In this document: positions 2,154 to 2,250 of the stretch, piece after piece
Layout: the number at the start of each line of letters is the position of its first letter
Numbering within the stretch: the stretch's first letter is position 1
Assembly (NCBI GenBank): GCA_007118565.1
Contig: SKRI01000214.1
Coordinates: 1 to 32,385 of the forward strand
DNA length: 32,385 nucleotides
Origin: Gemmatimonadota bacterium
GTDB taxonomy: Bacteria; Gemmatimonadota; Gemmatimonadetes; Longimicrobiales; Longimicrobiaceae
Reading direction: 5' to 3'
Program-made: the position numbers and the translations under genes
The notes under the pieces: model-generated
The model's input: the letters and a program-made list of their open reading frames with translations, nothing else
The model's database searches: none
Told to the model about the DNA's origin: nothing

Positions 2154-2188
2154 GGTGCGCGCGAAAAGCGCGACCAATGCCGAACGCT
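2154..2188 (+). repeat. 35-bp direct repeat, copy 1
   Basis: This is identical to 2199-2233 and set 45 bp upstream of it. Each copy begins with GGTGCGCGC-GAAAA-GCGCGACC, which can fold into a short stem with one bulged G and a GAAAA loop. Each ends with AATGCCGAACGCT. The 10-bp spacer after this copy contains a run of seven T residues (2190-2196). Confidence 0.9.
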
Positions 2189-2198
2189 GTTTTTTTAC

Positions 2199-2233
2199 GG
2201 TGCGCGCGAAAAGCGCGACCAATGCCGAACGCT
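2199..2233 (+). repeat. 35-bp direct repeat, copy 2
   Basis: This is a perfect second copy of 2154-2188. Its last 15 bp before the final T (2218-2232) form the left arm of a perfect palindrome whose right arm ends at the first base of the guaB -35 element. The right arm could in principle also pair with the same segment in copy 1 (2173-2187). Confidence 0.9.
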
Positions 2234-2250
2234 CCGCGTTCGGCATTGGT
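2218..2250. promoter_or_regulatory. 33-bp palindrome (15-bp arms, TCC loop) abutting the guaB -35
   Basis: The left arm 2218-2232 and right arm 2236-2250 are perfectly complementary, with ACCAATGCCGAACGC on the left. Base 2250 is also the first T of TTGACA. The centre lies about 50 bp upstream of the predicted transcription start. The site could be an operator for a dimeric regulator of guaB. It could instead be an RNA hairpin ending transcripts from the upstream gene, although no T-tract follows it. Confidence 0.6.

Follow-up and report, generated by a model that had tools for sequence, protein, structure and literature searches.

In E. coli, guaB is under growth-rate control, with an UP element and PurR. 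The guaB locus analysed here lies in a 32,385-nucleotide stretch of a Gemmatimonadota genome (the window, read from contig SKRI01000214.1). It shares with the guaB control regions of model bacteria putative regulatory DNA upstream of a strong promoter; unlike them, it holds no matching motif, and its upstream array is missing in relatives. The array is built of a 22-25-bp hairpin unit, X (GGTnnRCGCGAAnnGCGYGACC plus TNC), and a 33-bp palindrome, Y.

GTAG-type REPs have a GTAG head and stems of 6-13 bp, the head being degenerate (GYAG, GTRG) in some families (PMC3733652, PMC2817692). X resembles these REPs (Di Nocera 2013, PMC3733652; Nunvar 2010, PMC2817692) in being a 20-40-bp imperfect palindrome that folds into a stem-loop, with a four-base unpaired head and a covarying stem, and in its dispersed, mostly extragenic copies. 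It differs in its head, which is the looser GNAG and is lost at guaB, in stacking its units head to tail, and in its few copies in the source genome (three kinds of locus, far below the REP norm), although REP-like copy number and extragenic placement are found in G177, a genome of the same class but another family. Searches covering part of each genome (1.58 Mb of G177, 0.41 Mb of the source genome) revealed no RAYT-type open reading frame with an NHxH motif. We call X REP-like and stop short of counting it among the REPs, because of its head-to-tail order, looser head, few copies and the lack of a transposase in the part searched. Mosaic REP clusters (BIMEs) likewise bring together different hairpins with variable spacers, but their units alternate in orientation, whereas those of X are direct, with a 24-25-bp period. 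MITEs with promoter or hairpin parts (Correia, RUP; PMC10969869) are, like X, short non-coding mobile DNA beside promoters; X differs in having no terminal inverted repeats and a target duplication no longer than a shared GT, and it sits inserted within a MITE, so that it is not that MITE. Insertion at GTT also recalls integron attC sites, but, judged by sequence alone, neither the size of the unit nor its core sites agree with them.

All coordinates in the initial annotation of the array proved correct when recomputed. Positions 2154-2188 and 2199-2233 are identical in 35 of 35 bp, and the 15-bp inverted copy at 2236-2250 matches the reverse complement of 2218-2232 exactly. The perfect palindrome so formed ends on base 2250, the first T of TTGACA; its right arm can indeed pair with either copy, as the 15 bp also pair with 2173-2187; and seven T residues separate the copies. 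Two elements had been missed. Each 35-bp copy, which consists of a 22-bp X hairpin followed by the left arm of Y, has an internal hairpin, CGCGC-GAAAA-GCGCG; and a -10 box completes a guaB promoter, TTGACA-18 nt-TATCTT, with 10 of 12 consensus matches. Y overlaps its neighbours, having ACC in common with X and a T in common with the -35 box.

Table 1. Features of the guaB array and promoter (positions in the window)
Feature	Position	Strand	Remark
Weak candidate for a third, decayed X unit (GGCGTGAGCAGCGTGACC)	2106-2123	.	3 mismatches to X 18-mer
X hairpin unit, copy 1 (GGTGCGCGCGAAAAGCGCGACC)	2154-2175	.	
Orphan left palindrome arm (AATGCCGAACGCT) after X copy 1	2176-2188	.	With 2154-2175 forms the first 35-bp repeat
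T7 run between 35-bp copies	2190-2196	+	No recognisable intrinsic terminator
X hairpin unit, copy 2	2199-2220	.	
Y, 33-bp perfect palindrome	2218-2250	.	Arms 2218-2232 / 2236-2250, 3-nt loop
-35 box TTGACA, guaB promoter	2250-2255	+	
-10 box TATCTT	2274-2279	+	18 nt from -35
guaB, IMP dehydrogenase	2420-3889	+	PF00478, two CBS stretches

Chance as the origin of the 35-bp repeat and palindrome is excluded, because only ~0.002 perfect inverted repeats (arms of at least 15, loops of 2-12) and ~4e-11 repeated 35-mers are expected in the window; no other perfect hairpin with arms longer than 10 occurs in it. An assembly artefact was rejected, as the array lies well within contig C85 and the same architecture was assembled independently in C162.

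As single-stranded DNA, X and Y together fold far better than shuffled sequences (z -6.7). Folding of the + strand, too, is much stronger than in shuffled sequences (z -5.0), and an open reading frame at 1674-2063, whose one match, to DUF2281, is sub-threshold, runs in the same direction as guaB. Both points would suit hairpins acting in RNA, stopping or processing read-through from this upstream gene before the guaB promoter. We consider this quite unlikely: there are no intrinsic terminators (a G+C-rich stem followed by a T run) on either strand of 2050-2470, the T7 run does not adjoin a stem, the array has no Rfam match, and at a second locus, nuoA, the neighbouring gene dcd runs the opposite way, which places the array there outside any 3' end. 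A small structured RNA, as suggested in the initial annotation, is likewise unlikely, the array lying upstream of the sole promoter found.

We compared guaB with that of relatives. In 12 relatives a promoter of the form TTGAC(A)-17/18-TAnnnT stands at the same place, preceded by G (GTTGAC) in 10, and none of the 12 has X or Y at guaB. The Y palindrome is also missing from all 153 other genomes of the order that were scanned, being present in the source genome only. Since relatives keep the promoter without X or Y, and the palindrome is otherwise missing from the order, the promoter would be older than the array, which would have joined it later; the simplest point of entry is GT^TGACA, in line with the MITE described below. 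An operator array controlling GMP synthesis, another proposal of the initial annotation, should by its own reasoning be conserved at guaB; the repeat is absent there in the relatives, and the palindrome recurs at nuoA. A guaB-specific operator is thus not supported by these comparisons.

We also noted that in relatives (L018-L029, L035, L016, L040) the guaB transcript would start almost at a conserved CCATGG, where a short reading frame opens; in most cases this frame is not in phase with guaB, and a CCCGCC...GGCGGG hairpin comes after it. Positions 2280-2420 of the window keep the hairpin arms (CCCGCC/GGCGGG), and CCATGG is missing. The frame and hairpin ahead of guaB are a possible form of leader control.

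A model of X plus Y, run on the source genome, returned contigs C162, C114, C236 and C211. Within this genome X is confined to guaB, nuoA and two copies of a MITE, the latter holding it as a 50-bp dimer; other near matches fall within long open frames. The MITE (C236 and C211) is a ~170-bp element with inverted ends, common in the order (matches in 61 of 154 genomes), for which we identified no transposase. Its copies (C236 = L178:902-1130; L179, L262, L263, L264; many f3 and f2 loci) have ends AGTGTACTGTAGCAGAAGT / ACTTCTGCCACAGTACACT and an inner hairpin GGAATAGCgctGCTATTCC. Copies without X in the source genome read CTCCTCGTTGGAATAG (C117) or CTCCTCGTTGAAATAG, with TTGAAATAG in C190, whereas those with X read CTCCTCGT[50 bp]TGGAATAG, in full CTCCTCGT-GAGCGCGAACAGCGCGACCTTCGGT-AGACGCGAACAGCGTGACCTACGGT-TGGAATAG; in the MITE copies that we examined in the order's other genomes, X is absent. 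Comparison of the empty and filled copies indicates that X is inserted DNA, the dimer having added exactly 50 bp at GT^T. The inverted ends belong to the surrounding element: the filled and empty sites reveal neither terminal inverted repeats nor a target-site duplication for X itself.

At nuoA, C162 has the layout of guaB: X is followed by ACCAATGCCGGATGC-ACG-GCATCCGGCATTGGT and then TTGACA, with a decayed third X unit exactly 25 bp upstream; in C114, two tandem X units without Y precede the same TTGACA, and the contig reads into nuoA (PF00507). C162 had been considered as an rRNA promoter, which is ruled out by its match to the dcd-nuoA region of C114. The two contigs are versions of one region, 85% identical overall and with no differences between GGTTGACA and the contig end, indicating that the MAG mixes at least two strains (or species). 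At the identical nuoA promoter, the strains therefore differ in the -35-proximal hairpin: one has Y there and the other X, the distance from ACC to GGTTGACA being 27 nt with Y and 28 nt with X. Just downstream of the nuoA -10 box (L177:900-990, minus strand; L004:1-58) lies TTGTGAAAATGTTCACTT, which looks like an operator for the NADH sensor Rex.

Both guaB and nuoA have the order X-Y-GGTTGACA and an 18-nt spacer, and the spacers have no clear similarity past TTGACA, which argues for a shared position and not a copied promoter. The two copies of Y agree in the 10 outer bases of each arm, and both inner changes are compensated. Together with the Rex-box-like site, because of which the nuoA promoter is probably regulated, these features would fit an operator common to the two genes, with a growth- or energy-state regulator activating or repressing both from the palindrome, bound at about -36 to -68. 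This is possible, if on the unlikely side: Y is found in none of the 153 genomes of the same order and at just two sites in its own, the other strain's identical nuoA promoter bears two X units and no Y, and inner arm changes that preserve complementarity are more in keeping with a hairpin than with a site for a protein. It might instead be that X-Y-TTGACA is a promoter-bearing cassette, copied between genes and supplying the -35 box, as CGGCATTGGTTGACA is identical at guaB and nuoA, its only two perfect matches in the source genome. We regard this as very improbable, since TTGAC already stands at this position ahead of guaB in relatives that lack the array, and the two promoters are not clearly alike beyond the -35 box.

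The wider distribution of X was analysed by searching 395 genomes of the phylum with a two-unit X model; besides the source genome, strong matches were found in G177 only. A class-wide search of 394 genomes with the loop-and-tail pattern gave 36 matches in G177, 3 in the source genome, one each in 13 genomes and none in the rest, including G229 and G232, which belong to the genus of G177. G177 carries dozens of dispersed, mostly intergenic copies (seven of the nine checked are clear of likely genes). Here the unit GCCCGAACAGGGCGACCTTCGGTT lies within a palindrome, GGGGCCGTT^CGCGAACGGCCCC, and the host palindromes, GGCCGTTCGCGAACGGCC, contain no, one (in most cases) or two X units at GTT^; palindromes with no unit were found at 10 loci in the first 789 kb. 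The head-to-tail period is 24 bp, as against 25 bp in the source genome.

On the strand opposite guaB, X reads GTAG or GAAG, then GTCGCCC-TGTTC-GGGCAAC. The heads of 53 units of G177 on this strand were GTAG (29), GAAG (20), GCAG (3) and GGAG (1); in the source genome the head is GTAG in one C236 unit and both C211 units, GAAG at nuoA and ATTG at guaB. Among 18 distinct units from both genomes, 13 cells of the stem had changed on both sides, a figure limited by the kinship of the copies, which none of 500 shuffles equalled and for which slid controls gave 0 to 2. G177 also bears a classical-looking GTAG REP, GTAGGGGCCGGTCGCGACCGGCCCC (L318, L317; 43 places in the stretches examined).

Several other candidates were set aside. 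Matches to the palindrome pattern in 84,980 genomes (64) and in viral contigs (3) had no X before and no TTGACA after them, and represent unrelated hairpins; matches to R1 in other genomes of the order were weak and lacked Y and the promoter layout; GGTNNNCGCGAANNGCGNGACC with one mismatch occurs about once per genome in the order and was taken as background. Searches for X in plasmids, phages and viral contigs gave nothing convincing.

The array is probably a lineage-specific cluster of REP-like hairpin repeats beside a pre-existing guaB promoter, that is, debris of mobile DNA and no dedicated guaB switch. The third suggestion of the initial annotation, a REP-like mobile repeat, is supported for the hairpin part, X, in view of nuoA, the empty and filled MITE sites and the many G177 copies. 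X would enter DNA at GT^T and then multiply head to tail, by slippage between short direct repeats at the unit ends. Entry at guaB would have been at the promoter's GTTGACA, where the GGT that also closes the unit would have kept the -35 box whole. Y may then be another hairpin, a perfect one, that shares the outer frame ACC...GGT and takes the place of a promoter-proximal X unit, its perfection most likely kept by hairpin-templated copying during replication; the compensated inner changes would be expected from such repair or from selection on the hairpin. The first 35-bp copy would be a duplication of X and half of Y. The effect on guaB is expected to be none or passive, through cruciform formation, topology or separation from upstream DNA. 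What the data show directly is that X is dispersed, that its sites exist empty and filled, and that the promoter is conserved without the array; how X entered at guaB, how Y was copied and that the array has no strong regulatory role are inferences. A strong guaB-specific role is not needed for anything observed.

Some findings count against debris. Two unrelated promoters have X and Y in an identical position next to TTGACA, an agreement not required of simple debris; no Y copy was found away from promoters in the source genome or the same-order scans; the GNAG head is replaced by ATTG at guaB; and the source genome has only three kinds of X locus, with no REP transposase motif in the 0.41 Mb searched or in 1.58 Mb of G177. 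Of all the findings, only the common position of Y, seen at two sites (guaB and nuoA), speaks for a regulatory role. It is conceivable, though we think it unlikely, that the 24-25-bp hairpin is mobile in its own right, entering GTT by or inside hairpin DNA and stacking, and that X-Y against the -35 box now tunes guaB and nuoA jointly through DNA structure and not sequence.

On the favoured reading, as REP-like mobile DNA, X, one of the smallest units that seem to be mobile, can be compared between empty and filled sites, and its four unrelated settings (the MITE, the host palindrome and two promoters) are all consistent with entry at GT^T. At nuoA, one -35-proximal hairpin has been swapped for another with the promoter itself unchanged. 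The X sites make the spread of REP-sized repeats testable.
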